DNA from: Peribacillus sp. ACCC06369
GTDB taxonomy: Bacteria; Bacillota; Bacilli; Bacillales; DSM-1321
Length of the DNA: 64,000 bases
NCBI RefSeq assembly: GCF_030348945.1
Contig: NZ_JAUCEN010000002.1
Coordinates: 4,402,001 to 4,466,000, forward strand
Direction: 5' to 3'
This document shows, in pieces, positions 30,340-55,008 of this stretch. The stretch's first letter is position 1. Each line of letters starts with the position of its first letter. Position numbers and translations under genes: made by a program. The notes under the pieces were generated by a model. That model saw only the letters and a program-made list of their open reading frames with translations, was not told the origin of the DNA and did no database searches.

Positions 30340-30488
30340 AAGCTACATCCTTTAAAATGTTTAGTTAAAAGCGTACTAATTAACTTTATATACTTATTCA
30401 TTCCCAAAAGTAGTAAAATCTTTAATTTCAGTATAATCTTCAGTAGAGATTATTGCACTCTTAGGATAGAAGCTGCACTACAAAATAA

Positions 30489-30532
30489 AAACGAAAGCCT
30501 CCATTTCTTAAATGAAATGGAGGCTTTCGTTT
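30489..30532 (-). terminator. Terminator of the TOMM operon
   Basis: Perfect 19-bp stem AAACGAAAGCCTCCATTTC / GAAATGGAGGCTTTCGTTT with a 6-nt loop, 8 bp after the SagB-type gene stop codon. Confidence 0.85.
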
Positions 30533-30540
30533 CATCTTTT

Positions 30541-32112: not shown

Positions 32113-32135
32113 CCTCCTACCTCCTAAGTCACCGC

Positions 32136-36019: not shown

Positions 36020-36100
36020 TCCGCTCCTCCTAACCCGAAGCATTCTACGTTCTGCTTCAGCACTTCACTTTAATCCTATGTACGACAATTTGTCCCTTAT

Positions 36101-38064: not shown

Positions 38065-38529
38065 CTCCTTTGAACATGATACTTTTTTAAGCTCATGGTG
38101 AATACATGGTTTAATCGCCCTTCATAGGACAACACCATGCTAATGGACGCGGTCCCCAGATGGCCATTTCTTGAACACATGGCAACACAGGGATCAAAGT
38201 CCTCTTACGCTTTGCGGTTCTGCTGCCATCATCATGCCAAAATAAAGATGCAGATTCGATGCAAAATGACAGCGTTTACCATTAATAGTAACAAAGGCCG
38301 CGGCTTCTTGCTAATTTGTTGGCTGGACTCGATTACAAGGCAAATGGACTAGCGGAAGCCAAACCCTTTAATTTGATAGAAAGGATCATTGTTAACCAGC
38401 CCTTTTGGAATCGTAGTCCATTTTATCCTGTTTAAAGCATATAGGGCAAAAACATAATGACATGGGAAGCAAGTCCTTAACCAATATAGCAAAAAAAATT
38501 ACAGTAAGTAAAAGTATACGGGAGCGAAC
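38065..38529. other. Intergenic region, nothing recognised
   Basis: About 465 bp between the permease and the hydrolase cluster. No riboswitch, terminator or credible gene was identified. A 71-codon plus-strand frame at 38137 lacks a ribosome binding site. Confidence 0.4.
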
Positions 38530-38628
38530 ATGGCAGACTACCTGCATTCCGAGACTTTCAATCCCCAAAAGAAAAAGGAAATCCGGAAGTATCCAGAGAT
38601 CCTTGGGTTAGCCCTACAAGTCTATTGA
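38530..38628 (+). CDS. Possible tiny ORF, 32 aa
   Basis: ATG behind GGGAGCGAAC, encoding a Lys/Pro/Tyr-rich peptide (NPQKKKEIRKYPEI). It overlaps the end of the convergent hydrolase gene by 15 bp. It may be a real small peptide, a remnant of a larger gene, or chance; there is no family match from memory. Confidence 0.25.
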   Translation: MADYLHSETFNPQKKKEIRKYPEILGLALQVY

Positions 38629-39870
38629 CTGCTTTTGTTTATATAGTGAACCGGAAACCAAGTTACCCTTGAAAATGACCGCTTTACGTTCAGAACGCCT
38701 GGCAACTGCTTCTGCAGAACAGCTTGCGTCAATTAACACCAAGCTTGCTGCATCCCCCACTTTCGGCCATACCTGGTTACCCTTTTCGTCCAATGGGGTT
38801 TTTCCGCCCGTTATATACCCGAGTGTTCGGGAGAGGGAGACTTCATCAATCCATTTGAAGCGTTCTGCCAGCCTGCCGGCTCTCTCTAGAATGTCACCGT
38901 TCCCTAGAGGTGACCATACATCAAAGATATTATCATTCCCTACTGATACTTCAACCCCTCTTTCATGTAATAAACCAACAGGGGGCATCTGTCTGTTAAT
39001 AGGGACACTTGTGACGATGGAAATCCCCGCATCCTTAAGGATGTCAGCCAGCTCAAAGGCTTCTTCCCTGGATACATCCCCTATGCCAAACGCATGGCTT
39101 AATGCTACCCTGCCTTCCCAGCCTGCTTGCTTGGTCAGGGCTGCCAAACGTTTCATGGTGAACGTGCCCAAGTGGCCGGGATCATGTAAATGCAGGTCCA
39201 CATCAGCGTTCGCTTCCACTGCCAAATCCATCAATTGCACGAGCGAAGCTTCAATATTGTTATCGACTGTGGCTGGGTCGACTGCCCCGACGATTCCCGC
39301 TCCGTTTCGCAATGCCTCCCTGACAAGCTGGACAGACCCCGACCGCAACAATCCGTGCTGCGCAAATGCGACTATTTCTGAACTGAGTCTATTGGAATAG
39401 CCAGCAAGCGCCTCTTGGACTTGCTCTAAGTTCTGCAATCCCACTTCCGGGTAGATATCAACATGGGTCCGTACATGTGTAGAGCCAGAAGCTAAAAGTA
39501 TTTCCAGTAAAGACTCTGCCCGTTTACATGTGCTTGTTGCAATGGAAGGCAGCACCCTCTTCTCATTTTCAAAGCGTTCAATGACACTTTTAGAAGGCGT
39601 GCATGCTCTCCATACATCCCCCATCAGTGTCTTATCAAGATGGACATGCTTTTCAATGAAGGAGGGTAACGCCAGCAATCCTTTTGCATCTTCCGCTGGC
39701 AGATCATTAGGTATGGCCTCCCCATCTTTAACGATCTTCGTGATCCTTCCATCCTCCATCAACAGATGGAATAGACCGGTTATTGTTCCTGTAACTCTAT
39801 CATTCTCTTTCCGGTAACCACATTCCATACGAACATTCTTTAACCAATAGATTGTATTCATGCCCTTCAT
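38614..39870 (-). CDS. Cytosine-deaminase-like amidohydrolase, paralogue 1
   Basis: 418 aa, amidohydrolase superfamily. Metal ligands: HxH in EKHVHLDKTL (near residue 75), His in DLHLHDPGHLG, His in ALSHAFGIGD and Asp in VGNDNIFDVW. These match the CodA/AtzC-type deaminase group, which cleaves C-N bonds on ring or amide substrates. The start may be ATG 39870, overlapping the upstream stop as ATGA, or ATG 39861, which gives better alignment with its paralogues and better spacing from AGAAGGG. Last of three tandem paralogues on the minus strand. Confidence 0.9.
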   Translation of the reverse strand: MKGMNTIYWLKNVRMECGYRKENDRVTGTITGLFHLLMEDGRITKIVKDGEAIPNDLPAEDAKGLLALPSFIEKHVHLDKTLMGDVWRACTPSKSVIERFENEKRVLPSIATSTCKRAESLLEILLASGSTHVRTHVDIYPEVGLQNLEQVQEALAGYSNRLSSEIVAFAQHGLLRSGSVQLVREALRNGAGIVGAVDPATVDNNIEASLVQLMDLAVEANADVDLHLHDPGHLGTFTMKRLAALTKQAGWEGRVALSHAFGIGDVSREEAFELADILKDAGISIVTSVPINRQMPPVGLLHERGVEVSVGNDNIFDVWSPLGNGDILERAGRLAERFKWIDEVSLSRTLGYITGGKTPLDEKGNQVWPKVGDAASLVLIDASCSAEAVARRSERKAVIFKGNLVSGSLYKQKQSIDL

Positions 39871-41141
39871 TCCCTTCTTGAAATAGACATTCCCTTCACA
39901 TTCAAGGCGGATTCACAGTCGAGTCCGCCGTAAACCAGATTCCCATTGACCATGACCGCAGAACGCGTGGATCTCCGGGCAACTGCCTCGGCAGCACAAG
40001 AGGCATCCACGAATACCATACTTGCTTCATTTCCCACGTTCGGCCATAAACGATTTCCTTCATGGTCCAGTGTCCTGACCCCGCCCGTAATGAATTGGAG
40101 CGATTGAGACAATCCATACTCGTCCTTCCAGTTGTACCTCTCTGCCAATCGACCTGCCTTTTCCAGCATATCCCCTGTACCGAATGGGGACCAGGAGTCA
40201 TAAAAGCCATCACACCCGAGAGCAACGCGGACACCTTTTTCATGCAGTACATCAATTGGGGGAATGACCCGGTTGATCGGAACTGTGGACATGATGGCTA
40301 TCCCTAGGTTTGATAATTCACTGGCCAATTCATTTGATTCCCCACTGGAAACATCCCCAAGGGCAAAGGCATGACTGACAGCCGCTCTGTTTCTCCAGCC
40401 TGCTTCATCGATTAAAGAAGCGAGTTTCTTAATCGTATAAAAACCAAGATGACCGGGATCATGTATATGAATATCAATGTCTGCATCAAATTCAACAGCT
40501 AAATCCATCATTTCATAGAGGGAAGCTTCTATATTATTATCCACTCCGCCAGGATCCAGGCCACCCACCAAAGACGCCCCTTCTTTCATCGCTTGTCTCA
40601 TCAACCCTTTTGAATTCGTTCTTAGCAGTCCATGCTGCGGGAAAGCCACGATCTCGTATTTCATTTTCCCTTTGAAACTGCTTAACGCCTTCTGAATTTC
40701 TTCCAAGTTCTTCATACCGATGTATGGGTCAATGTTAACATGCGTCCTTACATGCGTCGCACCGCCTTTCAACAATAGTTGAAGCATCCGTTCAGCCCGG
40801 AGCCGCCCAGTTTCAGCCAGTTCGGCAAGCTCTTCCGCTTCTAATTTCAAGCGTTCGATTAAACTCGGAACAGGAGTGCATGATTTCCATGGCAGTCCTA
40901 AATAGGTCTTGTCCAGATGGTTATGCATCTCTTTAAAAGGCGGAAGTGCAAGCAAGTTTCCCGCATCTTGGACGGGCATTTCCGTTTTCAAAGGCATTCT
41001 TGAAGCCAATTGCAATTCCTCAATGATCCCGTCTTTTATATACATGTTGTATGAAGCTGTCTTTGTTCGATCGATTCTTTCATTCTCAAAAACAAATCCA
41101 CTATCAAGTGTAACGTTTGTAAGCCAGTATGCTTCATTCAT
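39867..41141 (-). CDS. Cytosine-deaminase-like amidohydrolase, paralogue 2
   Basis: 424 aa. Same layout as its neighbours: N-terminus EAYWLTNVTLDSGF, metal site EMHNHLDKTYLG, DIHIHDPGHLGFY, SHAFALGDVS, LGCDGFYDSWSPFG and C-terminal DASCAAEAVARRSTRSAVM. All metal ligands are present. It lies 24 bp after paralogue 3 and overlaps paralogue 1 by 4 bp, so the three are one transcript from the promoter at 42456-42518. The Gly-Cys-Asp at the C-terminal metal site, where the others have Gly-Asn-Asp, hints at a different substrate. Confidence 0.92.
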   Translation of the reverse strand: MNEAYWLTNVTLDSGFVFENERIDRTKTASYNMYIKDGIIEELQLASRMPLKTEMPVQDAGNLLALPPFKEMHNHLDKTYLGLPWKSCTPVPSLIERLKLEAEELAELAETGRLRAERMLQLLLKGGATHVRTHVNIDPYIGMKNLEEIQKALSSFKGKMKYEIVAFPQHGLLRTNSKGLMRQAMKEGASLVGGLDPGGVDNNIEASLYEMMDLAVEFDADIDIHIHDPGHLGFYTIKKLASLIDEAGWRNRAAVSHAFALGDVSSGESNELASELSNLGIAIMSTVPINRVIPPIDVLHEKGVRVALGCDGFYDSWSPFGTGDMLEKAGRLAERYNWKDEYGLSQSLQFITGGVRTLDHEGNRLWPNVGNEASMVFVDASCAAEAVARRSTRSAVMVNGNLVYGGLDCESALNVKGMSISRRE

Positions 41142-41165
41142 TGAATCACTCTCTTTAATAGAAGA

Positions 41166-42413
41166 TTAAACACCTGTCGTCTCGAAAGATGAAATAGATC
41201 CGCTTACAACATTGCCCCTAAAAATGACAGCGGCACGCTTTGACCTTCTGGCCACCGCTTCCGCGGAACAGCTAGCTTCAAGCAAAACGATATTCGCCTC
41301 ATCCCCGACATTGGGCCATGCCTTGACCCCGTCTTGGTTTAATGGGGTCTTCCCTCCTGTTATGAACTGCAGGCTTTTAGCTAAAGAACGTTCCTCAATC
41401 ATGCGAAACCTCTCAGCAAGGCGACCGGCCTTTTCCAGATTGTCACCGATGCCGAAGGGTGTCCAATGATCAGTGATGCTGTCATTGCCCAGTTCAACTT
41501 TCACCCCTTTTTCATGGAGCAGGGGAATGGGGATCGTTCTGAAGATAGGCACTGTGGATGTAATGGATATTCCTGTTTCCGAAAACCTTTCGGCTATACC
41601 CGTAGCCTCTGCAACGGAAAGATCTGCCAAACCGCTGGCGTGGCTAACCGTTACCCTTCCTTGCCACCCTGCGTCTTCCGTCATCGAAGCGAGGCGTTTC
41701 ATGGTAAAGAGTCCAAGGTGATCCGGATCATGTAAATGGACATCAATATCGGAGTTCGATTCAACCGCGATATCCATGATCGTTTCAAGAGACCGCTCTA
41801 TATTTTCATCAATGGTGGCTGGATCCACGCCTCCTACCAGATTCGCCCCATTTTTCATGGCCTCCCTTACTAGTCCTGCGGAATTGCTGCGTAATAGTCC
41901 ATGCTGTGGGAATGCGACGATTTCATACGTCAATTTATCCTTATATCCTTCGAGCGCTTGAATGGTAGCCTCTAAATTTTTCAGACCTATAACGGGGTCA
42001 ATGTTACAATGGGTGCGTATATGGGTAGATCCGAAGCTCAATAATAAATCCAGCATTTTTTCTGCTCTTGCTTTAGCGGTAGGCAATAACTCAGGAAGTA
42101 AAGCCTGCTCTTCCTCTATCCGGGTTTTCACGCCATTTATGGCAGGCATGCAGGCCTTCCACGGACCGCCATAGTACGTTTTATCAATGTGAATATGCAT
42201 TTCCTTAAACGAAGGGACCATCAGGAGACCTTGAACATCATGCTGTGGATCCTGATCTGTTATCGATTCCTCCGCTAATAAAATCGAGGATATTTTTCCA
42301 TTTTCAATCTTGATGTGGTAATTTCCGGTTTCAGTGCCGGTAACCGTTTCATTTTCATTATAAGTAAAACCATTTTCCAAGCGTACATTCGTCAACCAAT
42401 ATGATCGTGACAT
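41166..42413 (-). CDS. Cytosine-deaminase-like amidohydrolase, paralogue 3 (first of operon)
   Basis: 415 aa from ATG 42413, behind AAGGGTGAG, giving the N-terminus MSRSYWLTNVRLENGF that aligns with both paralogues; a longer frame upstream lacks that support. Metal ligands in EMHIHIDKTYYG, DVHLHDPDHLG, TVSHASGLAD and LGNDSITDHW are all present. First gene of the three-hydrolase operon, with a shared-pattern promoter 43 bp upstream. Enzyme class firm, substrate unknown. Confidence 0.92.
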   Translation of the reverse strand: MSRSYWLTNVRLENGFTYNENETVTGTETGNYHIKIENGKISSILLAEESITDQDPQHDVQGLLMVPSFKEMHIHIDKTYYGGPWKACMPAINGVKTRIEEEQALLPELLPTAKARAEKMLDLLLSFGSTHIRTHCNIDPVIGLKNLEATIQALEGYKDKLTYEIVAFPQHGLLRSNSAGLVREAMKNGANLVGGVDPATIDENIERSLETIMDIAVESNSDIDVHLHDPDHLGLFTMKRLASMTEDAGWQGRVTVSHASGLADLSVAEATGIAERFSETGISITSTVPIFRTIPIPLLHEKGVKVELGNDSITDHWTPFGIGDNLEKAGRLAERFRMIEERSLAKSLQFITGGKTPLNQDGVKAWPNVGDEANIVLLEASCSAEAVARRSKRAAVIFRGNVVSGSISSFETTGV

Positions 42414-42455
42414 TAAACTCACCCTTCCACTCCAGATTGAACATGCATCCATTTC

Positions 42456-42518
42456 ATTATAATTCTAAAGGTCATTTAATAATTTCAGAATTTTTACTCA
42501 TTTTTATGTTATTTTTAC
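42456..42518 (-). promoter_or_regulatory. Conserved operator/promoter 1 (hydrolase operon)
   Basis: Minus strand: two direct repeats GTAAAA whose first bases are at 42518 and 42497 (21 bp apart), then TATAAT at 42461-42456. The TATAAT starts exactly 36 bp from the start of the nearer repeat. ATTCTGAAA follows the nearer repeat. No good -35 hexamer exists, so an activator is expected. The same arrangement occurs at 44692-44754 and 49467-49529. Confidence 0.8.
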
Positions 42519-42542
42519 TTATTCTGATTTAACCAAAGAAAA

Positions 42543-42920
42543 AGGCTCACCCTAAAATGGATGAACCCTTTCAGACTGGAGACAACTCTATGAAAACTAG
42601 TTTGCCTGCAGTTTTTTATTTAAAAAGTTCAATTGATTTCAGAGATCCGCTCCCTTCTTTTGTAGACGTTGATTTCCACTCCAGGCACTTGCTTTCCGCG
42701 GGCGGTCCGGGAGCCTCCTCGGCGTCTTTGCTCTTGTGGGGTCTCCCTTGGACGCGCTTTTCCCGCAGGTGTCTCGCACCTTCCGTTCCAATCAACTTTG
42801 CTTTAAAATCCCTTTCCGCCGACTGCCTGCCAAGCATCCTCGGCGCAAGCGCCTGTGGGGTCTCGGCTAGCCAGTAATTCGGCAGGAATGTCGCAAATCT
42901 CTTCGATCCAATGAGGATTA
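42543..42920. repeat. R3-R2 repeat interrupted by an R1 copy
   Basis: Inverse orientation to the 28.7-kb copy: an R3 arm (AGTTTGCCTGCAG near 42599), the first part of R2 up to GATCCGCTCCCTT, then an R1 copy (core 42668-42796), then R2 resumes with TCCCTTTCCGCCGACTG up to CAATGAGG. TCCCTT occurs on both sides of the insert (42651-42656 and 42809-42814) but once in intact R2, as expected of a target duplication. The insert is 152 bp. No coding capacity. Confidence 0.82.
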
Positions 42921-42944
42921 CAGTAAAAAAACCTAAAGACCGGA

Positions 42945-43083
42945 GCACTTTATTCGACCCGCTGCACTGTCTTGGGCCGTTGACGCAGTTTATCGACCTA
43001 AACCACAAATTATTCGGCCGTTCACGCACAGCATTCGACCTACCCAACACTTTATTCGACCGTTGAGGAACTTTATTCGACCG
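42945..43083. repeat. 21-bp minisatellite, seven degenerate units
   Basis: Minus-strand unit GGTCGAATAAAGTGCNNNAAC, with CGACC-type cores on the plus strand at 42955, 42974, 42994, 43015, 43036, 43057 and 43078. The last four intervals are exactly 21 bp. The array begins at the stop codon of the binding-lipoprotein gene and fills the gap to the R2 repeat. Confidence 0.8.
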
Positions 43084-44649
43084 TCATTTTATCGTTACGT
43101 CATTTATATCCAAATAGCCTGAAGGGCTGATCGAAAACCCTTTTACTTCTGTCGCGACTGCAGCAACATTTTCAATGACCCTTACAGGAATATACGGGGT
43201 GTCACCCATCTCGATTTCCTGTGCCTCTGCGTATAGTTCTTTACGTTTCCCTTCTTCCTTTTCTCTTCTGGCAGCATCTATTAAACTGTCAACCTTTGGA
43301 TTGCTGTAAAAGAATGTATTTCCAGCCGCCCCCTGTGAATCCGTATGAAAAAGATTATATTGATTATAATCAGCATCTCCGGTCGCGTTTCTCCAACTGA
43401 TGATGAACATTTCCGATTGCCCTTTATTCACTTGTTCCACGAACGAACCGTACTCCATGACCTGTACCTTCAAATTAATTCCAATCCCTTTTAGTTGGGA
43501 TTGCAGGACTTCAGCCAAGTTCACTCTTTCCTTACTGTCCATCGTCAGGATGGTCGCATCCAAACCTTTTGAATATCCAGCTTCAGCCATCAGTTTCTTT
43601 GCTTCTTTCAGATTGTATTCATAGGCTTCCAAATCTTCGTTGTACCCGAATACTTTAGAGCCCATCAATGAGTTCGCCTTTACTCCCACATTATTGAAGA
43701 CACCCTTGATGATCGAATCCATTTCTATGGCATGGGCAATGGCTTTTCTGACCCGGACATCATTGAACGGTTCATTATTGACATTGAACCCTAAATATTC
43801 GGTGCCATACCCTTCACTGCGGTAAACATCCATTGCCGGTGAAGATTCCACCTGGTCCATGACAGCTACAGGAAGAGGTTCAGCAATCTGCGCTTCACCG
43901 GTATCAATCATCGATATCCTCGTTGAATCTTCAGGGACGACCTTGAAGATGACCTTGTCCAATTTTGGCTTATCTCCCCAATAGCTTTTGTTTTTCATCA
44001 ATGTGATTTCTTGCCCTGGGGACCATGAATCAAAAACGAAAGGACCGGTTCCATTCGGTTCCTGGATGATCTTTTTGCCAAACTTTTCAATTGTTTTCGG
44101 ACTGATGATGCCGCCTTCGTGATTCGCCAATATGGAAAGGAGCGGGGAAAAAGGTTCCTTCAGAATGAATTGCACGGTAAATTCATCAATCGGTTTCACC
44201 TCTTTTACCATATCGAATACTACCGCTCTAGGAGAAGCGACCTTTGGATCCAATAGTCGATCAAACGTCTTTTTTACTGCATCTGCATTAAAAGGCGTGC
44301 CATCATGAAACGTTACGTCTTCCCTAAGCTTGAATTCCCAGGTCGTGTCATTTATTTGCTTCCATTTTTCTGCTAGCATTGGCTGTATCTCACTATTCTC
44401 ATCCCGTTGTACAAGACCTTCATAGATTTTATGGTGAGTGACACTAGCGGCGTTAATCGTGGACATGAACTGCTGATCCAAATTCTCAGCGTCGGACAAA
44501 CGGGCAATAACCAATGTACCCCCTTCGTTTGATGCTTTGCTTTGATCATTTGCCGTTTTGCTTACATCATTGTTAGAAGAACAGCCCGTAATTATGATAA
44601 CCATGATCATGACTAGAAAAAGCTTTCCTGTTCCACGTTTTAACCCCAT
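43084..44649 (-). CDS. Family-5 ABC substrate-binding lipoprotein, copy A
   Basis: 521 aa. Signal peptide with lipobox ITGC (Cys near residue 23), then a SBP_bac_5 (oligopeptide/nickel/dipeptide-type) fold: LRDATF-like segment LREDVTFHDGTPFNADAV near residue 110, GTGPFVFDSWSPG near 200 and RKAIAHAIEMDSII. Closely similar along its length to copy B at 47.8 kb, so the two arose by duplication. ATG follows GGGAGG. It has its own promoter of the shared type at 44692-44754. It probably feeds the Opp-like permease encoded at 49.6-53.5 kb. Confidence 0.93.
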   Translation of the reverse strand: MGLKRGTGKLFLVMIMVIIITGCSSNNDVSKTANDQSKASNEGGTLVIARLSDAENLDQQFMSTINAASVTHHKIYEGLVQRDENSEIQPMLAEKWKQINDTTWEFKLREDVTFHDGTPFNADAVKKTFDRLLDPKVASPRAVVFDMVKEVKPIDEFTVQFILKEPFSPLLSILANHEGGIISPKTIEKFGKKIIQEPNGTGPFVFDSWSPGQEITLMKNKSYWGDKPKLDKVIFKVVPEDSTRISMIDTGEAQIAEPLPVAVMDQVESSPAMDVYRSEGYGTEYLGFNVNNEPFNDVRVRKAIAHAIEMDSIIKGVFNNVGVKANSLMGSKVFGYNEDLEAYEYNLKEAKKLMAEAGYSKGLDATILTMDSKERVNLAEVLQSQLKGIGINLKVQVMEYGSFVEQVNKGQSEMFIISWRNATGDADYNQYNLFHTDSQGAAGNTFFYSNPKVDSLIDAARREKEEGKRKELYAEAQEIEMGDTPYIPVRVIENVAAVATEVKGFSISPSGYLDINDVTIK

Positions 44650-44691
44650 CGACTTCGACCTCCCGATTTCATTTAATTGAGCATTTATCTA

Positions 44692-44754
44692 ATTATAGGA
44701 AATATTCTGACTATTTATTTTGAAAATCTTTACTATGTTTTTCATTTTCTTTAC
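44692..44754 (-). promoter_or_regulatory. Conserved operator/promoter 2 (binding protein A)
   Basis: Minus strand: direct repeats GTAAAG starting at 44754 and 44733 (21 bp apart), then TATAAT at 44697-44692, again starting 36 bp from the nearer repeat. The start codon lies 43 bp beyond the TATAAT, the same distance as at promoter 1. The distal repeat overlaps the stop of the preceding amidohydrolase gene. Confidence 0.82.
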
Positions 44755-46256
44755 TTGTTTTCGTAAATGGTTTTCACTTCTGTATCGCTTATCGATTCGA
44801 CGACCTTAAATGATGGCTTAAACAATTCTTTCTCAGGAAGCTTCTGATAATCTCTTTCCATATATCCTCTTCTCATCTTATCGAAATACTTTTGCCCCTT
44901 ATATTTGATTTCCATTAAATCAAGATTGGGGATTTTTTGATCCTTCATGACTACTTTTCCATTTATGATGGATAATTTAACGTCTCTTCCTGATCCGCTT
45001 ACGAACATGGTTCGAATGGGATCATCGATTACACCCATATGATAACTGTCCAAATCAATCGCAATGATATCAGCCTTGGCCCCTGCTGCAATGCGGCCAA
45101 GATCGTTCCTGCCAAGAAAAGCCGCCGCATCAAGAGTGGCTGACCGAAAGAAATCGGCAAATGCAGAGCCTTCCGCTTCTCTTTCCACCATCCGTGAGAG
45201 CATGCTGCCTGTCCTGACGTTCTGAAACATATCCGGAGGGAAGGTGTCCGTTCCAAGCGCGATATTTATCCCTGCCCTTTTATATTTAGCGAATGATTCC
45301 AACGCCTCCCCATGCCTCCCGATAATCAGAGGGCAATGAATCACTGTTGTATTCGTTTCTCTTAGCAGCGCCAAGTCATCCCCCTGTCCATATTTCGCTC
45401 CACTGTATCCTGAAACAAAATGGGCATGCGGTATCCCTGTTCTTGGACCCAGAAAGCCAAGGTCGTACAAATATCTGATCGGTGTGACACGATAAGCTTC
45501 CCATATGGTATTGAATTCAAAACTTCCTTGTGCAGCATGGAGCTTTATCGGTACATCCAATTTTCCACTGTAATATTTGATCTGTTTTAATTGCTCTGCA
45601 GTTTGAGACTCTATACGTTCTGGAGCGAGCATCCCTCTGACCATGCCTCCATGGGCTCCATCGAATTTTTCTACAAACTCCACCGCTTTCCGCAATCCCG
45701 CTTCCCCGGCCTTTTCATCCCAATGCAGTTTTATATTTCCGTTAGGCTCGACGACTCTCATTCCTGATTGGAAACTTGGTCCCAGGTAAATCCTTAACCC
45801 CAATTCAGCTGCATGTTTTGCCGCAGCTGCCAATTCTTCATAGGTTTCGGCCCAGCTTTTATAAAAAACGGAAGTGATGGGCATGGCCGTCGTCACACCA
45901 TGAAGAATGAGTTGTGAATAAGCATATAAAGATTTAAAGGATTCTTCTTCCTCGGTCATTAATTCGGGATGTCCGCTTTGTATATGATTCTCTGACCAGA
46001 GAAGGTTTTTCTGTCTGTTGGAACCGGCTTCAAAATGTAAAATATCATGGTCAATGTCCCCTAATGCATTTAAATCGATGAACCCGGGACTGATAATGGC
46101 GTTACCGGCATCCATTACCTCGTCCACTTCTTCCGGATAATTTTTTCCGACATACAGAATCGTGTCTTTTTCATAAACGATCTCTGCATTTTCCAAAATG
46201 ACATGATCGCACCCGTCATACCCAATTACATATCTTCCTTTAAGCTTGGTTTTCAT
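44751..46256 (-). CDS. Amidohydrolase family protein with altered metal site
   Basis: 501 aa, chlorohydrolase/TRZ-ATZ type. The usual HxH of the family is replaced: the segment reads PGFIDLNALGDIDHD near residue 58, so two metal-binding His are missing at the expected place. Later ligands are present (KLHAAQG, PHAHFVSG, LGTDTFPPD), and C-terminal GAKADIIAIDL is typical. It may use a different ligand set, such as the Asp/His in DIDHD, or have altered chemistry. ATG follows AGGAAAGGGG, one base after the preceding hydrolase ends, in the operon led by binding protein B. Confidence 0.85.
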   Translation of the reverse strand: MKTKLKGRYVIGYDGCDHVILENAEIVYEKDTILYVGKNYPEEVDEVMDAGNAIISPGFIDLNALGDIDHDILHFEAGSNRQKNLLWSENHIQSGHPELMTEEEESFKSLYAYSQLILHGVTTAMPITSVFYKSWAETYEELAAAAKHAAELGLRIYLGPSFQSGMRVVEPNGNIKLHWDEKAGEAGLRKAVEFVEKFDGAHGGMVRGMLAPERIESQTAEQLKQIKYYSGKLDVPIKLHAAQGSFEFNTIWEAYRVTPIRYLYDLGFLGPRTGIPHAHFVSGYSGAKYGQGDDLALLRETNTTVIHCPLIIGRHGEALESFAKYKRAGINIALGTDTFPPDMFQNVRTGSMLSRMVEREAEGSAFADFFRSATLDAAAFLGRNDLGRIAAGAKADIIAIDLDSYHMGVIDDPIRTMFVSGSGRDVKLSIINGKVVMKDQKIPNLDLMEIKYKGQKYFDKMRRGYMERDYQKLPEKELFKPSFKVVESISDTEVKTIYENK

Positions 46257-46257
46257 C

Positions 46258-47766
46258 TTATTCCCCTTTCCTCATTGAGGCAGCGCCTTCTCGTTCGTCA
46301 TATCTTTTTTCATCTACATATGCCCTGGCATGTCCCCAGAAATATTTCGTCGGCTGCATATACTTTTCGAGCCCGGCACGCTTTATCGTTGAAAAGGCCT
46401 CTTCATTCGCTTCGTTCAGCACTGTACTTTCATGAACCGTCCGTACATTCCTCCCTTCCATGATCAATTTCCCATCCACGATGACATGCTCCACATCATT
46501 CGCCACTGCTTGGAAAACAAGCCGGTGAACATGCATGAATTCAGGGGTCAGATGAGGCTGATGCAGATTGACCGTAATGACATCCGCTTTTTTTCCGATC
46601 TCCAGGGAGCCTATTTCATCATCCCAGCCAATGCATTTCGCAGCATCTTTCGTGATCATTTCCAACAGTTTGCCTGGGGGTAAATAATAGTAGTCCCTAA
46701 GGGCTGCCTGGTGAACGAACTGCGTTTTCCTCATTGCCTGAAACATATCGAAACTTGTGGAAGGGGAAGTCCCATCCGTGGAGATCGCCACAGTTGCACC
46801 CATCTCCAATAATTCAGTTATCGGGGTGCGTGCATGAACCTGTCCAAATCCAGGTGATGCACTGACGTTGGTACCTGTTTCTGCCAGTATTCTTGCTTCA
46901 TCGAAGGAAATGCCCCGACAATGCTGTAAATGGACATCCGGACCCAATAGGGCATTTTCCTTATCCTGTATCGCTAAATGAATCATCCCGCCAAAGGCAT
47001 CGGAGTGTATCCTTGTGTTATATTTCCTGGCAATCTCCCTTATTTTCTTCGCTTGATAAAGATCATGATCATTCAGCCCATAAAGCCTGTCAGGTGATGT
47101 GGGATTGGAAGGATCAACGGATGTCACAATGACAAATGGTGTAATGAAGGCTCTCGTGCGGTCTTCATTCGCATGGTTCAGTGCCTCGATCACCGCTTCC
47201 GCCCCCTTCAATACTTCTTCATAGGAAACTTCCTTCACCACTCTCTTTCCGTCAATCCACCGGCTGAATGAATGGGGCCATGGAGGGTTGCAAGGACCCG
47301 TGCAAACCACTTCCCTGATTCCCACTTCGGCGTATGCTTTTGCATGATTGATGGCGAAAATCGGTTCATCGGATCGTGGCATGGATCCTAAAACGCTCAC
47401 CCCGGTTGTCACTCCCGCCTTTAATCTCTCAAGGGAGGACAGCTTTCCTTCGTAATACCAAAAGTCATCCGTAACAAAATGCTTGTACGTATTTGTCATG
47501 ATGGGCATCCAAAAATCAATATTCTCCATTGCAATCGTTTTGAACATGGAATGTCCCCCATGACCATGAACATCTATTAATCCGGGCAATATACACTGAT
47601 GGCTGCAATCAATGACTTTTACAGCCTCATACTTCAATTTCAGTTTTTCGGTTGAATCAACGGCTAAAATCCTTCCTTGATTAATGGCGATGGCGCCATC
47701 CTGCAGAATTCTCCTGTTTTGATCCATGGTTATCACGGTTCCATGGATTAGCAGTAAATCTATCAT
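46258..47766 (-). CDS. Amidohydrolase, TRZ/ATZ family
   Basis: 502 aa. Metal ligands are complete: HGHGGH in PGLIDVHGHGGHSMFK near residue 66, His in IHSDAFGG, His in LQHCRGISF and Asp in ISTDGTSPS. C-terminal GSLEIGKKADVITV is typical of the family, which hydrolyses amino or chloro groups on rings and related C-N bonds. ATG follows AGGAGGGG. It lies between binding protein B and the amidohydrolase with altered metal site and shares their transcript. Substrate unknown. Confidence 0.92.
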   Translation of the reverse strand: MIDLLLIHGTVITMDQNRRILQDGAIAINQGRILAVDSTEKLKLKYEAVKVIDCSHQCILPGLIDVHGHGGHSMFKTIAMENIDFWMPIMTNTYKHFVTDDFWYYEGKLSSLERLKAGVTTGVSVLGSMPRSDEPIFAINHAKAYAEVGIREVVCTGPCNPPWPHSFSRWIDGKRVVKEVSYEEVLKGAEAVIEALNHANEDRTRAFITPFVIVTSVDPSNPTSPDRLYGLNDHDLYQAKKIREIARKYNTRIHSDAFGGMIHLAIQDKENALLGPDVHLQHCRGISFDEARILAETGTNVSASPGFGQVHARTPITELLEMGATVAISTDGTSPSTSFDMFQAMRKTQFVHQAALRDYYYLPPGKLLEMITKDAAKCIGWDDEIGSLEIGKKADVITVNLHQPHLTPEFMHVHRLVFQAVANDVEHVIVDGKLIMEGRNVRTVHESTVLNEANEEAFSTIKRAGLEKYMQPTKYFWGHARAYVDEKRYDEREGAASMRKGE

Positions 47767-47832
47767 ATTTCCCCTCCTAATTGAGAAGACAGCATAACAT
47801 CCTTATGCTGCCTCCCTTTTTTGATGATTTCC

Positions 47833-49389
47833 CTACTTCACGGTTACGTCATCAAGCATTAAATAATTTGCCGGATTCAGCCAAAGCCCTTTAACCGTCC
47901 CACCATATACCGCCAAATGTTCATAGTTACGGATAGGAACATATGGAACTTCTTCCCTTTCAATTTCCTGTGCCTTCGAATATAGTTCCTTACGTTTATC
48001 TCCATCCGATTCTTTACGTGCACTTTCAATCAATTTGTCCACTTCCGGGTTGCTATAGAATGAACTGTTTCCAGCAGCACCTTGGGATTTGCTATCAAAA
48101 AGATTGAATTGGTTATAATCTCCATCCCCGGTAGCATTGCCCCAGCCGCCTATCGATACCTGGTGCTCGCCTTTAGCGGTCGCATCAATGTAAGCCCCAT
48201 ACTCAAGGACTTGAATCTTGACCTTGATTCCAATTCCTTTTAACTGGGATTGAATCACCTCGGCCATATTAATCCTTTCCTTACGGTCACTCGTCGTCAA
48301 TGTAAACTCCAAGCCATCCTTGACCCCTGCCTCAGTCAAGAGCTTCTTCGATTCATTAATATCATAGTCGTAGCCTTTTATATCCGGATCATAGCCAAAC
48401 ACTTTTGGGCTCATTGTCGAATTTGCCCTCGTACCGACATCGTTATAAACCCCTTTAATAATCGAATCGACCTCGATGGCATGAGCGACCGCTTTACGGA
48501 CACGTACATCATCGAAAGGTTTTTTCTTAACATTGAAGCTTAGGTACTCAACCGCAAGTCCCTCCGTGCGATATAAATTCATCGTGTCCGATGCTTCGAT
48601 CCTATCAATCTCAGTCACTGGCACTTGATCGGTCACATGTGCTTCACCGGTTTCAATCATCGCAATCCTCGTGGCATCTTCAGGGACAACCTTGAATACT
48701 ACGCCATCAATCTTCGGTTCATCCCCCCAGTATTCCTCGTTTTTCGAAAGTGCGATCTCTTCACCTGGCTTCCACGATTTAAAAACGAATGGCCCTGTCC
48801 CAACCGGGTTTTGACCTAGCTTGTCACTATGTTCCTTAATCGCTTTAGGGCTGATGATGCTTCCTTCATTACTCACTAAAATCGATAACAGCGGTGCATA
48901 AGGATATTTCAGCTTGAATTGTACGGTCGTTTCGTCAACCACTTTAATTTCTTTGATCATTTCCAATTTACCAGCCTGCGGAGAAGCTGTTGCCGGATCA
49001 AGTATCCTGTCGAAATTGGTTTTCACCGCTTCGGCATTGAATGGAGCTCCATCATGGAATTTGACTCCCTCTTGCAATTTAAATTCCCAAGTGACATCAT
49101 CCAGTTGTTTCCACTCTTTTGCCAGCAGCGGTTTAGGATCCATGTTTTTATCAGGAACGACCAACGTTTGATAAACCTTTTCATAAACGACGTTTGCTGA
49201 TGGAATGTCTGTTATGAAATGAGGATCCAGGATGGTCGCGTCAGATAATCTCGCGACGATCAGTGTACCTCCTTCTTTCGCTTTTCCTTCTGGTTCCTTG
49301 CTGCCGGTTTGATCTGCTGCACACCCAGATAAAACGGATGAGATGCCTAATAACGATGCAAACAGTAACCCCATCATACTTTTTCTCAT
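47833..49389 (-). CDS. Family-5 ABC substrate-binding lipoprotein, copy B
   Basis: 518 aa. Signal peptide with lipobox LSGC (Cys near residue 23). SBP_bac_5 features: LQEGVKFHDGAPFNAEAV, GTGPFVFKSWKPGEEI and RKAVAHAIEVDSII. Strong similarity to copy A through the whole length, including the C-terminal YVPIR segment. It is the first gene of a three-gene operon with two amidohydrolases, and divergent from the oppCBDF-like operon, sharing a 211-bp regulatory region with it. It would deliver substrate to that permease. Confidence 0.94.
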   Translation of the reverse strand: MRKSMMGLLFASLLGISSVLSGCAADQTGSKEPEGKAKEGGTLIVARLSDATILDPHFITDIPSANVVYEKVYQTLVVPDKNMDPKPLLAKEWKQLDDVTWEFKLQEGVKFHDGAPFNAEAVKTNFDRILDPATASPQAGKLEMIKEIKVVDETTVQFKLKYPYAPLLSILVSNEGSIISPKAIKEHSDKLGQNPVGTGPFVFKSWKPGEEIALSKNEEYWGDEPKIDGVVFKVVPEDATRIAMIETGEAHVTDQVPVTEIDRIEASDTMNLYRTEGLAVEYLSFNVKKKPFDDVRVRKAVAHAIEVDSIIKGVYNDVGTRANSTMSPKVFGYDPDIKGYDYDINESKKLLTEAGVKDGLEFTLTTSDRKERINMAEVIQSQLKGIGIKVKIQVLEYGAYIDATAKGEHQVSIGGWGNATGDGDYNQFNLFDSKSQGAAGNSSFYSNPEVDKLIESARKESDGDKRKELYSKAQEIEREEVPYVPIRNYEHLAVYGGTVKGLWLNPANYLMLDDVTVK

Positions 49390-49466
49390 TCTATTTCCTC
49401 CCTTTTCAACCTGCCTTTGTTTTCTCCAAGTAACTTTCAGCTATGAGTACATCGGGCTTACTTCAA

Positions 49467-49529
49467 ATTATAAAAAAAAACCGAATTTTATATTTTCAGA
49501 ATCTTTACACATTTTTTAATTATCTTTAC
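49467..49529 (-). promoter_or_regulatory. Conserved operator/promoter 3 (binding protein B / opp divergent region)
   Basis: Minus strand: direct repeats GTAAAG starting at 49529 and 49508 (21 bp apart), then TATAAT at 49472-49467, starting 36 bp from the nearer repeat exactly as in promoters 1 and 2. It lies between the divergent binding protein B and opp genes, so the same regulator might serve both sides. No clear plus-strand promoter was found. Confidence 0.82.
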
Positions 49530-49600
49530 TGCTTTTCCGCATCATATTTACTTCAATACCTATTTTGAATAAATTTAATGAAAGAAAAGGAGGAAGTGCA

Positions 49601-50503
49601 ATGAAGCCAGAGATTGTCATTAATAATACCGAATTGAAGGTAAACGAAAAAAAATCTCCAAAACTAAGCCACTGGAAAGCCTTTTATAAAAAATTCAAGA
49701 GAAATAAACTGGCATTGATAGGCGGATATATCGTACTTTTTTATATTTTATTGGCTATCTTTGCACCTTTGATTTCACCGCAGGATCCCTATGAAATTGA
49801 TTTAGTCAACAAACTCCAGCCTCCGTCGGCCGAACATTGGATGGGTACGGATGATAAAGGAAGGGATATTTTAAGCAGATTATTATATGGAACCCGGCTT
49901 TCATTAACCGTTGGATTTGTCTCTGTATTCTTCGGGGCTTTCATTGGCATTCTGCTAGGGTTAACGGCTGGTTATTACGGAAAATGGATCGATACCGTCA
50001 TTATGAGGATTGTCGATGTTCTGCTGGCTTTCCCGGGAATATTGCTCGCACTTGCCATCATTAGTGCCCTTGGCCCAAGTTTAATCAATGTAATGGTAGC
50101 GGTCGGTGTCTTTTCCATACCCATGTTTGCCCGAATTGTCCGCGGCTCCACACTGTCAGTCAGGAAGCTTGAATATATCGATGCCATTCGTGCATTGGGA
50201 GCCACTGACTTCACGATCATAACCAAGCACATTTTTCCGAATATTCTATCACCCGTCATCGTTCAAGCTACATTACGTCTGGCAACAGCCATTCTATCGG
50301 CAGCAGGATTATCATTCCTGGGGCTCGGAGCCCAGCCTCCCTCACCGGAATGGGGAGCCATGTTGAGCAGCGGTCGGGATTATTTGTTCAGCGCCCCTCA
50401 CATCGCTTTGTTTCCCGGATTAGCCATATCAACACTGGTACTCGGTTTCAATGTCTTCGGGGATGGACTTAGAGATGCCCTGGATCCAAGAATGAAAAAA
50501 TAA
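49601..50503 (+). CDS. ABC transporter permease, OppC/DppC type
   Basis: 300 aa from ATG 49601, behind AGGAGGAAGTGC; an upstream TTG in frame is weaker. N-terminal helix after the KKFKRNKLALIGGYIVLFY motif, then the OppC signature AEHWMGTDDKGRDILSRLLYGTRLSL and the EAA-loop region IDAIRALGATDFTIITKHIFPN. About six membrane helices. First gene of a plus-strand transporter operon and divergent from binding protein B. Confidence 0.94.
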   Translation: MKPEIVINNTELKVNEKKSPKLSHWKAFYKKFKRNKLALIGGYIVLFYILLAIFAPLISPQDPYEIDLVNKLQPPSAEHWMGTDDKGRDILSRLLYGTRLSLTVGFVSVFFGAFIGILLGLTAGYYGKWIDTVIMRIVDVLLAFPGILLALAIISALGPSLINVMVAVGVFSIPMFARIVRGSTLSVRKLEYIDAIRALGATDFTIITKHIFPNILSPVIVQATLRLATAILSAAGLSFLGLGAQPPSPEWGAMLSSGRDYLFSAPHIALFPGLAISTLVLGFNVFGDGLRDALDPRMKK

Positions 50504-50515
50504 GGAGGAGAGAAA

Positions 50516-51436
50516 ATGTTCGTATTTATAATCCGACGGGTCTTTCAAACCATACCGGTTTTACTAGGAGTAAGTCTTGTTGTTTTCCTCATCATGCAAA
50601 TGGTCCCTGGAGATCCGGCAACACTGCTTGCAGGTGAAGGAGCGACTAAAGAAACGATTGAATCACTGCGACATGAGCTTGGCTTGGATCGCCCAATCCT
50701 TTATCAATACGTCGACTATATCATTCATGCTGTTCAAGGAGACTTTGGGGAATCACTCCGCAGCAGCCGTCCTGTTTTGGATGAAATCATGGTCCGCTTG
50801 CCAATCACCCTTGAACTGGCACTCGCCAGCATTTTCATAACCGTTGTCCTTGGTATGCTTGCAGGGATCATCTCGGCAACCAAGCAATACTCGGCAGCTG
50901 ACATTTCCATCATGATCGTTGCTTTACTGGGAATCTCTTTACCTAGTTTTTGGCTGGGTCTGATGCTTATCTACTTCTTTTCCGTAAACCTTCATTGGTT
51001 TCCGGTTTCAGGTTGGGGAACCATCAGGCACATGATTCTGCCAGCGATAACCCTTGGGGCCGGCGGAGCGGCCATAGTTGCCAGGATGACCAGGTCGAGC
51101 ATGCTCGAAGTCGTTCGCCAGGACTACATCCGGACAGCAAGAGCCAAGGGATTAAAAGAATATGTCATCATTTATAAACATGGCCTGAAAAATGCGCTTA
51201 TCCCCGTCATTACAGTCGTTGGCCTCCAGTTCGGTGCACTCCTCGGCGGTACTGTATTGACAGAGTCCGTTTTTGCCATCAATGGACTTGGGAGATTGAT
51301 AGTCGATGCAATCAGAACGAGGGATTTACCAATGGTTCAGGGCGGGGTCCTTATCGCTTCCGTTATCTTCGTATTCATGAATTTGGCAGTGGATGTCCTC
51401 TATCGATACTTTAACAAAAGAATAGATTTGAATTAA
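50516..51436 (+). CDS. ABC transporter permease, OppB/DppB type
   Basis: 306 aa with about six membrane helices. N-terminal [19 protein letters not shown], then [16 protein letters not shown] and the C-terminal EAA-type loop [23 protein letters not shown] follows AGGAGGAG, 12 bp after the OppC gene. It forms the channel together with OppC. Confidence 0.94.
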
Positions 51437-51442
51437 GGAGGT

Positions 51443-52471
51443 ATGATGATGAAACAGGTTGATGATAAAATACTGGAGGTAAAAAATCTGCAGACCCACT
51501 TTTTCACTGACGAAGGCACGAGTAAAGCGGTCGACGGAATCAGTTTCTCCCTAAATAAAGGGGAAACCCTTGGAATCGTCGGGGAGTCGGGAAGCGGCAA
51601 AAGTATAACATCCTTATCATTGTTAAGGCTTATTCCATCGCCACCCGGAAAGATTGCCGGAGGCAGCATCCTTTTTAAAGGGGAGGATCTGCTTACGAAG
51701 ACTGAAAAACAGATGCGGTCCATACGCGGCAATGAAATTTCGATGATATTCCAGGAACCGATGACATCATTGAATCCCGTATATTCAGCAGGTGAGCAAA
51801 TTGCAGAAGCGATCCGGCTCCATCAAAATCTCGGAAAAAAAGAAGCATGGGACAAAGCGGTCGACATGCTTCGGCTCGTCGGAATCCCCTCACCTGAAAA
51901 AAGGGCAAAACAGGAGCCGCATGAGCTAAGCGGCGGAATGAGGCAGAGGGTCATGATTGCCATGGCACTTGCCTGTCACCCTGAGGTTTTAATAGCCGAT
52001 GAACCTACTACAGCATTGGATGTGACGATCCAGGCCCAAATCCTGGAACTGATTAAGACGCTGCAAAAGGATTTCGGGACGGCTGTCATTTTGATCACTC
52101 ATGATTTGGGTGTCGTATATGAAACCTGTGATCGGGTTGCTGTCATGTACGCAGGAAAAATCGTTGAATACACATTGGCCAAGGAAATATTCACAAATCC
52201 TAAACATCCTTACACTATCGGTTTATTAAACTCCCTTCCGCGTCTGGACATGGACCAGGAAGAATTGACTACAATTCCCGGGACTGTTCCGAGTCCTTAC
52301 AATATGCCTAAGGGCTGCAGCTTTGCTCCCCGCTGTGCACATGCGAAGAGCATTTGTGAACAAGCCGTACCGGATCTACAAGCGACCGGCCCAAGCACCC
52401 AGGTCAGCTGTTGGATGTTCACCCCCCAATGGGAGAAGGAATATGACACTCAAGAGAAGGTAGGGGTTTAA
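51443..52471 (+). CDS. ABC transporter ATP-binding protein, OppD/DppD type
   Basis: 342 aa. Walker [10 protein letters not shown]-loop [10 protein letters not shown], signature LSGGMRQR, Walker [12 protein letters not shown] and H-loop ITHDLGV. The C-terminal oligopeptide/dipeptide motif, [17 protein letters not shown], may hold an Fe-S cluster in this family. Three ATG codons stand in a row at 51443, 51446 and 51449; GGAGG lies only 2 bp before the first, so the third is the likelier start. Confidence 0.94.
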
Positions 52472-53460
52472 TGATGGGTGTACCAGTTGCAGAGAAAAAG
52501 GTTCTGCTTAAAGTGGATCAATTGAAACAATATTTTCCGATCAAGGGTGGATTTTTCGGAAGAACTGTCAATCATGTAAAAGCCGTTGATGACATCAGCT
52601 TCCATATCTATCAGGGTGAAACCTTAAGCATAGTTGGCGAATCCGGCTGCGGAAAATCGACTACCGGAAGGGCGATCCTTCGATTGGATGAACCTACAAG
52701 CGGGAGTATACATTTTCAGGATAGGGATTTACTGAGTTTAGGAAAAAAGGAAATGAGGAGCACCAGGAAGGACTTGCAAGTTATTTTCCAAGATCCATTT
52801 GCCTCTCTTAACCCCAGACAGACCATAGGGAAAATTCTCGGAGAAGCCTTAGCCATACAAAATGTAGTCCCTAAAGAAAAACGAAAGAGCAGGATTGAAG
52901 AATTATTGGGACATGTCGGGCTGAGACCTGAATCCATGGAAAGATATCCGCACGAATTCAGCGGCGGCCAGAGACAGCGGATCGGCATTGCACGGGCCCT
53001 TGCAGTGGACCCAAAATTGATCATATGCGACGAAGCCGTATCTGCACTCGATGTCTCCATTCAAGCGCAAGTACTGAATTTATTAAAATCGTTACAGCGA
53101 CAGTTCGACCTTACCTTTCTTTTCATATCACATGATTTGGGTGTGGTCAGACATATCTCGGATCGTGTAATGGTCATGTATCTCGGAAAGATAGTCGAAA
53201 TAGCCGATAAAAAGTCCATTTTCGAGCAGCCGCAGCATCCATATACGAGAGCATTGCTATCTGCCATCCCAGTACCGAATCCAGTGAATGAAAGGGAACG
53301 GATCCTATTGACGGGTGATGTCCCCTCACCCATCGATCCTCCAAGCGGCTGCCGCTTCCATACACGATGTCCTTTTGCATTGGACATCTGTAAAACAGAG
53401 GCACCCGAACTAAAATTATCTGAACAGAATCATCAAGTGGCTTGTCACATTGTGTCATAA
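52471..53460 (+). CDS. ABC transporter ATP-binding protein, OppF/DppF type
   Basis: 329 aa. Walker [10 protein letters not shown]-loop [10 protein letters not shown], signature FSGGQRQR, Walker [13 protein letters not shown]-loop ISHDLGV and C-terminal [16 protein letters not shown]. It overlaps the OppD stop codon by one base (TAATG), so translation is coupled. Last gene of the four-gene transporter, 88 bp before the sensor kinase gene. Confidence 0.94.
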
Positions 53461-53548
53461 GTTGTAGATTTCCCAAGGGGTCTTTAGTATGATACTAATA
53501 AACAGAATAATTAAAGTTATATAAAAATATAACCAGCAGAGGTTCTCC

Positions 53549-54310
53549 ATGCTTAGTTACGAAGGATTCACGTTAATTATCATGCTCTTCATATTAGCTC
53601 CCATCATGGGAGCTATCGCTCTTTTATTTCTATTCATATTCGAGAAGCGGATCGATCTCCTTGAAAATAAAAACAAAGAGATACGTCTGGAGCAAGCACT
53701 TCAAGAAGCACAATATAATAAATTGAACCAGCAAATCCAGCCTCACTTTTTGTTTAATACACTAAATGTCATTTTGGGCTTGGCCCGCCTGAACAGGACG
53801 GCTGAACTGATAAGGGCCTTAGAGGCATTTTCGCAATTCTTGAAATTCAAATATAAAGCAACTGAACCATTAATCCCCCTTTCCCAGGAAATTCAGTATA
53901 CTCAGCATTATCTCGACATCCAAACCCTTCGCTTTGGCGATCGCCTTAAGATCGATATGGAGTGCCCAGACCCATTATCAATTGCAATGGTACCCCCTTT
54001 CATTCTCCAGACTTTAGTGGAGAATTCGTTTAAACACGGCTTGGAAAAAAAAGTGGGGGAAGCCCTTCTGCATATCCGGTTCCATCAGGATTCGCAGATG
54101 GTGTATCTCGAAGTGATGGATAATGGATTAATGGGACATTCCGTTACAAACGAAGGCGGCCATGGACTGGATAATATCCAAAAGCGTTTATATTTGTATT
54201 TCAATGACCGTGCACAATTGAATATATCTTCTAATGAATCTGGAACAAATGTAGAGGTATCATGGCCACTGGTTCATGATAAGAAAATGGAGGAGGCGGC
54301 GCCGGAATGA
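53549..54310 (+). CDS. Sensor histidine kinase, LytS/YesM type without sensor domain
   Basis: 253 aa. One N-terminal membrane helix (about residues 8-31), a short coiled coil, the His_kinase domain with phosphoacceptor His66 in QQIQPHFLFNTLN, and a HATPase_c domain with TLVENSFKHGLEKK and GGHGLDNIQKRL. No extracellular sensor region exists, so the signal must come from inside, from the membrane, or through a partner such as the symporter two genes on. ATG follows AGAGG. It overlaps the response regulator gene by 4 bp. Confidence 0.92.
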   Translation: MLSYEGFTLIIMLFILAPIMGAIALLFLFIFEKRIDLLENKNKEIRLEQALQEAQYNKLNQQIQPHFLFNTLNVILGLARLNRTAELIRALEAFSQFLKFKYKATEPLIPLSQEIQYTQHYLDIQTLRFGDRLKIDMECPDPLSIAMVPPFILQTLVENSFKHGLEKKVGEALLHIRFHQDSQMVYLEVMDNGLMGHSVTNEGGHGLDNIQKRLYLYFNDRAQLNISSNESGTNVEVSWPLVHDKKMEEAAPE

Positions 54311-55005
54311 ATGTATTATTAGTTGATGACGAACCATTGGTCCTTGAACAAATGGAATATATGATTCAGTCCATATACCCTTTTTGGAAGTTTCATAAAG
54401 CTGCTGATGCCTGTCAGGCACTGACCCTCACCCAAAACTTTAAAATAAACCTCGCTTTCCTGGATATCAATCTCCCGGGGCGATCGGGTCTTGAATTTGG
54501 TGAAGACCTAAGGGCACTGAACAAAGAAGTGGAAATCATCATGGTGACCGCACATCAAAGTTTCGATTATGCCCAGCAATCCATAAGGATAGGCGTAGTT
54601 GATTATTTAACGAAACCTGTAATTGAAAGCGATTTGCATAAAGTGCTATCCAGGTATGATAAAAGGGAGTCTTCTCATAACTACTCAACCCTGATTCACC
54701 ATTCCCTTTCATTCATTCATGAAAATTATGCTGAAAAACTCTCCCTTTCGGACATCGCCCGTGAAGTGCATACAAACCCGACTTATTTAAGCAGGAAATT
54801 CCATGAAGAAGTCGGCACTTCCTTTTCGGAATATTTAATGCAATATAGAATAAAGGCAGCTAAAAGGGCCTTAACCAATAACACCAGTTGGAGCATATCA
54901 GACGTCGCTGAAAACTCGGGTTTCAATAGCCAGCATTATTTCAGCACTTTATTCCGGAAGATAGAGGGAATCACGCCCAAGGAGTTCCGCGAGAAAGGAA
55001 AATGA
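54307..55005 (+). CDS. Response regulator with AraC-type DNA-binding domain
   Basis: 232 aa. Receiver domain at residues 1-115 with the phosphoacceptor Asp53 in LAFLDINLPG, the acidic pair in LLVDDEP and the switch Thr in MVTAHQS. The AraC-type domain with two HTH motifs fills about 130-232 (LSLSDIAREVHTNPTYLSRKFH and SISDVAENSGFNSQHYFSTLFR). AraC proteins often bind direct repeats about two helical turns apart, as found at three promoters in this locus. Coupled to the kinase gene by overlap. Likely activator of the hydrolase and transport genes. Confidence 0.93.
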   Translation: MNVLLVDDEPLVLEQMEYMIQSIYPFWKFHKAADACQALTLTQNFKINLAFLDINLPGRSGLEFGEDLRALNKEVEIIMVTAHQSFDYAQQSIRIGVVDYLTKPVIESDLHKVLSRYDKRESSHNYSTLIHHSLSFIHENYAEKLSLSDIAREVHTNPTYLSRKFHEEVGTSFSEYLMQYRIKAAKRALTNNTSWSISDVAENSGFNSQHYFSTLFRKIEGITPKEFREKGK

Positions 55006-55008
55006 ACA

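Follow-up and report, generated by a model that had tools for sequence, protein, structure and literature searches.

Which regulator governs the three promoters that share one direct-repeat arrangement within a locus for uptake and amidohydrolase enzymes in Peribacillus sp. ACCC06369? The locus lies in a 64,000-nucleotide stretch of contig NZ_JAUCEN010000002.1 (assembly GCF_030348945.1; positions 4,402,001 to 4,466,000, forward strand), hereafter called the window, and it also encodes a histidine kinase and, at 54307-55005, a response regulator with an AraC-type helix-turn-helix (HTH) domain. Our data suggest that a 21-bp direct repeat ahead of each promoter is the predicted operator of this response regulator, which probably activates all three promoters with class II geometry, and the results support in its essentials the interpretation of an initial annotation made from the sequence alone. 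The elements concerned are as follows (bit scores refer to the position weight matrix described below):

42483-42518, minus strand: direct-repeat operator C (distal repeat 42518, nearer repeat 42497; 35.1 bits)
42456-42461, minus strand: TATAAT -10 box of promoter C, ahead of the amidohydrolase genes 42452-38614
44719-44754, minus strand: direct-repeat operator A (distal repeat 44754, nearer repeat 44733; 56.8 bits)
44692-44697, minus strand: TATAAT -10 box of promoter A
49494-49529, minus strand: direct-repeat operator B (distal repeat 49529, nearer repeat 49508; 50.0 bits)
49467-49472, minus strand: TATAAT -10 box of promoter B

At promoters A, B and C the minus strand reads GTAAAR-N15-GTAAAR, with repeat starts 21 bp apart in all three cases, and the TATAAT begins exactly 36 bp from the start of the nearer repeat in 3/3. 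The coordinates given in the initial annotation were right to the base, and the two spacings it described were reproduced at each of the three separate loci. The nearer repeat is directly followed by ATTCTGAAA at promoters C and B and by ATTTTCAAA at promoter A. At 44751-44754 the distal GTAAAG of operator A contains the TAA stop of the amidohydrolase 4 gene (44751-46256), and operator B is situated in the upstream region of oppC.

That such identical spacing is hard to explain by chance, as the annotation had argued, agrees with simulation: the window holds three copies of GTAAAR-N15-GTAAAR-N30-TATAAT while 200 first-order Markov simulations gave none, and GTAAAR pairs at spacing 21 number four against a mean of 0.035 expected from such simulations, with at most one pair in the window at each other spacing from 8 to 60. 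The fourth pair, at 57524, lies inside a repetitive gene encoding Big_2 domains. The repeat pair is specific only in combination with TATAAT. When the -10 box is left out, GTAAAR-N15-GTAAARATT has four exact matches in the 5.62-Mb genome, at the three promoters and once within an open reading frame (ORF), and with up to one mismatch the same search yields 17 matches against 39 for the reversed control; because this loose pattern is not enriched genome-wide, it was left out of the evidence. A genome scan with the TATAAT-containing pattern, which the annotation had called for, is specific, giving 59 matches without mismatch in 43 family genomes against one for the reversed pattern; in the genome of the window it found no regulon members beyond the locus. 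The units are AT-rich and stand two helical turns apart, as phased A-tracts that bend DNA, or UP elements, would without any specific protein, but we regard this origin of the repeats as highly improbable, given that the pattern goes with the locus across the 43 family genomes and that the GTAAA cores and the G at positions 0 and 21 hardly vary (features that the training pattern itself demanded).

The 59 matches fall in 21 of the 43 family genomes, and these are the same 21 that encode the response regulator (53-100% identity across nearly its full length). The other 22 have neither a TATAAT-pattern site nor a regulator of at least 53% identity, and eight of them carry regulator paralogues at 30-42% identity. 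Exactly three places occur in 16 of the 21 pattern-bearing genomes, and 57 of the 59 places share a contig with the regulator gene and are no more than about 16 kb from it, the remaining two being on another contig of one genome (G015) and elsewhere in another (G041). The regulator itself combines a Response_reg domain (E-value 2.1e-25) with an HTH_AraC domain (E-value 1e-26), both passing the Pfam cut-offs, and its GFNSQHY segment is invariant in 20/20 aligned sequences.

An unlinked regulator might bind the repeats in place of this adjacent one, since the locus and the adjacent regulator travel together, so that genome co-occurrence cannot tell them apart, and binding by the adjacent regulator is itself inferred. 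We consider it unlikely: the sites are absent in the 22 relatives that lack the adjacent regulator, no other DNA-binding family is listed among the scanned window genes (36760-56340), the adjacent regulator lies within the conserved gene order of all 59 loci described next, and a paralogous kinase-regulator pair (see below) has its own, different repeat nearby.

The 59 loci were collected by a scan for the kinase in Peribacillus, Gottfriedia, Neobacillus, Brevibacillus, Paenibacillus, Ectobacillus and others. The order oppC-oppB-oppD-oppF-kinase-regulator-transporter is found in 58 of them, the contig of the remaining one (L064) ending before oppC; in two loci (L037, L038) the gene matches are fragmented or shortened. 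A position weight matrix built from 57 distinct sites of these same loci and the window (threshold 17 bits) detects at least one site of at least 17 bits in 59/59 loci and in the window, so by this measure relatives that carry the locus keep the sites. The weakest sole matches are less secure (L074, 19.9 bits; L051, 27.9 bits with a poor -10 box; L063, 29.0 bits). All 118 sites in the loci are on the opposite strand from oppC; 109 of them are at most 350 bp ahead of a gene for a binding protein (78) or an amidohydrolase (31).

The geometry of the promoters is also conserved. Among 95 distinct promoters, comprising sites of at least 22 bits with a -10 box of at least 5/6 bases (others were dropped, and spacing ties were resolved towards 36), the nearer repeat is 36 bp from the -10 box in 82, 37 bp in seven, 35 bp in five and 39 bp in one. 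The best match to TTGACA at spacers of 16-18 has 1/6 bases in 15 promoters, 2/6 in 57 and 3/6 in 23, which bears out the claim that no usable -35 box is present. The computed group consensus is A-GTAAAGATANTGAAA for the distal half and A-GTAAAGATTTTNAAA for the nearer half. A direct repeat of about 21 bp, a near-fixed distance to the -10 box and a missing -35 box are features of an AraC-type activator-dependent promoter, and all are found here. The regulator could instead bind the repeats and repress, or activate just some of the three promoters; the sign of regulation is inferred, and the repeat of promoter B also lies in the upstream region of oppC. The near-constant 36 bp to the -10 box and the missing -35 box in the 95 promoters, however, have the look of activator dependence, and make repression or partial activation quite improbable.

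The reading of the initial annotation, in which the response regulator would activate all three promoters, was further supported by a prediction test in addition to the shared occurrence of sites and regulator (59 loci; 21/43 genomes). A search of 13 further genomes, allowing up to two mismatches, matched in 13/13 and returned 41 places against eight for the reversed control; downstream genes were inspected in one of them, Brevibacillus reuszeri (genome G053, locus L041). This genome has seven pattern places against none in the control, and the weight matrix run on the collected stretches adds one, making eight sites. All eight stand ahead of expected genes: four are amidohydrolase-first, two of these forming a divergent pair, three are SBP_bac_5-first, one of these genes being followed by a Xan_ur_permease gene, and one precedes an SBP_bac_1 importer. 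One site lies on a different contig and precedes two amidohydrolases, which is our best evidence for a trans-acting factor and points to a trans-acting regulon.

Several observations weigh against activation by the adjacent regulator as the full account. Amidohydrolase 5 is present in 20 of the 43 family genomes, the regulator set minus one genome (G003), and co-occurrence therefore shows linkage to the locus and not to the regulator alone. The reversed control at up to two mismatches, with its eight places, was non-zero in five of the 13 further genomes. At nine of the 118 sites no known locus gene follows within 350 bp; among them, one (L041, 17647) is the site ahead of the SBP_bac_1 importer, two are near the end of a locus (L039), and there are six others. 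The extra site of G041, its fourth (L131, 6618), is on a contig other than that of the locus and precedes a 171-amino-acid ORF without a Pfam family. No site among the 118 drives the oppCBDF-kinase-regulator genes, and autoregulation has no support because all of the sites point away from these genes. The sites of Neobacillus diverge (GTAGAA..GTAATA, GTCAAA..GTAAAT), and some genomes need one or two mismatches; comparing the recognition helices by eye with these divergent motifs gave no clear picture of covariation. In some Neobacillus genomes a second regulator, 71-72% identical to that of the window, is encoded near amidohydrolases (L136, 2801-3454; L137, 14825-15445), and tblastn gave no kinase match beside it in L136 and L137. 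The pairing of site and regulator is consequently less secure in Neobacillus.

The genes on which such regulation would act, with families assigned by Pfam and NCBIfam scans, are the following:

38614-39870, minus strand: amidohydrolase 1 (PRK06846)
39867-41141, minus strand: amidohydrolase 2 (PRK06846)
41166-42452, minus strand: amidohydrolase 3 (PRK06846), first gene of promoter C
43084-44649, minus strand: solute-binding protein A (SBP_bac_5), gene of promoter A
44751-46256, minus strand: amidohydrolase 4 (PRK06151 chlorohydrolase family)
46258-47766, minus strand: amidohydrolase 5
47833-49389, minus strand: solute-binding protein B (SBP_bac_5), first gene of promoter B
49601-53460, plus strand: oppC, oppB, oppD and oppF, Opp-type ABC importer (listed ORF from 49565)
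53549-54310, plus strand: histidine kinase of the PF06580 (LytS/YesM) type, 253 amino acids
54307-55005, plus strand: response regulator with receiver and AraC-type HTH, 232 amino acids, predicted to bind the repeats
55009-56340, plus strand: SSS/SLC5-type transporter, DUR3-like, 443 amino acids

oppC probably starts at the ATG at 49601, behind an AGGAGG, rather than at the TTG at 49565. By sequence, the nearest solved structure to amidohydrolase 5 is atrazine chlorohydrolase (E-value 4e-38), that to amidohydrolase 3 is N-isopropylammelide isopropylaminohydrolase (E-value 6e-50), and those to amidohydrolase 4 are other amidohydrolases, a set of resemblances that suggests deaminase or aminohydrolase chemistry on N-heterocycles for the enzymes of the locus. 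Elsewhere in the window, 28909-36043 holds genes of a thiazole/oxazole-modified peptide (TOMM) cluster, of the YcaO, ThiF-like and nitroreductase types, next to a GntR/aminotransferase gene, the downstream protein with repeated Big_2 domains (56520-58610) is matched at the same place in some relatives and not in others, and 63005-63697 encodes an FHA domain fused to a winged-helix Trans_reg_C domain.

In the mechanism we propose, the phosphorylated regulator would bind as two monomers on the same face of the DNA, two helical turns apart, with the nearer half-site extending to where the -35 box is absent; placed there, the regulator would replace -35 recognition through a contact with sigma-A (class II activation). 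Binding protein B and amidohydrolases 5 and 4 would then be expressed from promoter B, binding protein A from promoter A, and amidohydrolases 3-2-1 from promoter C. These products would serve the Opp-type importer and the deaminase/aminohydrolase enzymes acting on a nitrogen-rich, likely heterocyclic compound, and the regulon would thus likely switch on the uptake and breakdown of nitrogen-rich ring compounds. The input is the least certain step, in which the adjacent DUR3-like transporter may gate the kinase through a conserved membrane segment.

YesM-type kinases possess a large extracytoplasmic sensor, and the 253-amino-acid kinase of the locus departs from this. It matches PF06580 (E-value 6.5e-22), and its gene overlaps the start of the regulator gene. 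Judged by eye, the protein has one N-terminal hydrophobic segment, and the Pfam scan gave no sensor domain, listing nothing ahead of His_kinase, which begins at residue 54. Of seven segments picked by hand and compared in 20 sequences, residues 16-40, covering the end of the hydrophobic segment and the stretch that follows, are the most conserved (mean majority share 0.88, compared with 0.80 for residues 61-110 and 0.51 for residues 176-245). The transporter gene follows the regulator gene in 59/59 loci. Its Pfam SSF match is below cut-off, its nearest profile relatives are DUR3 urea symporters (E-value 1e-17), and its structural model has the SSS fold at moderate confidence (predicted local distance difference test, pLDDT, 72); profile and fold together mark it as a DUR3-like member of the SSS family. 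The constant adjacency and the conserved kinase membrane segment are what suggest that the transporter could sense for the kinase; it may alternatively be just a target or an uptake route.

The initial annotation had mentioned neither the kinase's lack of a sensor domain nor the neighbouring transporter, nor a further element that stands in the spacer of promoter A:

44701-44715, minus strand: AATAGTCAGAATATT, palindromic spacer element between operator A and its -10 box, possible CodY site

A AATATTCWGAATATT-like palindrome (TCWGAAWATT) lies between the nearer repeat and the -10 box in 43 of the 95 promoters, and the wider consensus of these 43 class-A promoters, AATANTCWGAATATT, is itself a near palindrome that differs at two symmetric positions from the published CodY box, AATTTTCWGAAAATT (PMC9318921). 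At most three mismatches to AATTTTCWGAAAATT are seen in 34/43 class-A promoters, 2/52 others and 1.7% of single-base shuffles, a comparison that is partly circular as the class expression shares the core. CodY is encoded in 5/5 genomes searched. In the genome of the window (G000) the palindrome occurs with up to one mismatch at eight places, each on both strands, against two forward and two reverse for the reversed control; one place is in the locus and one (L145) is within an ORF. Seven proteins scanned beside the other six places have no clear CodY signature, though one of them resembles a nitrite-reductase-type flavoprotein. The spacer palindrome may be a CodY site; an additional, third half-site of the regulator was another reading considered.

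Two genomes, G016 and G034, carry the paralogous pair mentioned above (kinase 47% and regulator 42% identical). At the G016 pair an ORF weakly like the transporter (24%, no Pfam family) comes next; no transporter-like match was seen at the G034 pair. A de novo scan found a different 21-bp repeat with TATAAT near the pair in both genomes, and in G016 this repeat stands ahead of a gene for an acetamidase/formamidase, with an amino-acid permease and an SBP_bac_3 importer encoded close by. One chance-looking place also turned up in the window, within a coding region (44535-44537, plus strand), so that any single such place is weak evidence and the paralogue's site draws its weight chiefly from its recurrence in both genomes. 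With a transporter-like ORF and an amidase gene nearby in G016, the paralogous pair may point to a reusable module.

Sensing by way of a transporter, which we raise as an idea, has a partial parallel in the SLC5/STAC sensor kinases CbrA, CrbS and RpuS, in which an SSS/SLC5 transporter is reported to be linked with a histidine kinase (PMC7918813, PMC13022988, PMC7096432, PMC5715377, PMC9100948). The locus shares this tie of transporter to kinase. It differs in that the two are separate genes (55009-56340 and 53549-54310) and in that its kinase is short, of the PF06580 type and paired with an AraC-type partner. No STAC domain is listed in our Pfam scans of kinase or transporter, the presence of a STAC model in the library being unchecked. 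We hold only tentatively, and with more doubt than conviction, the full picture of a split transceptor, in which a DUR3-like transporter would sense for a sensor-less kinase that signals to an AraC-type regulator with a 21-bp operator, often with a CodY-type palindrome, for N-heterocycle scavenging across Bacillales.

AraC-type response regulators are frequent in Firmicutes, and class II AraC-type activation by a response regulator is a kind already known, for which the comparative support at this locus is good. The closest geometry is that of AraC at araBAD, where the direct-repeat half-sites I1 and I2 are also 21 bp apart, the nearer one reaching into the -35 region, and the protein has the same type of HTH. 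Unlike AraC, the locus regulator has its DNA-binding domain fused to a receiver, and phosphorylation rather than sugar binding is accordingly expected to control it. Among the matches listed from open-licence papers we found no literature on the operator or the locus, and publication elsewhere remains possible. The XydS/R system of Clostridium cellulolyticum is alike in that a receiver plus AraC HTH regulator encoded beside a kinase controls nearby catabolic genes; the available portion of that paper mentions direct repeats among the features common to two bound regions, and states that no consensus DNA site is identifiable for AraC/XylS activators (PMC3572039). Whereas no operator is defined in that portion (PMC3572039), the present group of loci has one operator of near-fixed geometry across genera, which predicts target genes in another genus and links amidohydrolases akin to atrazine-degrading enzymes with an as yet uncharacterised two-component system.

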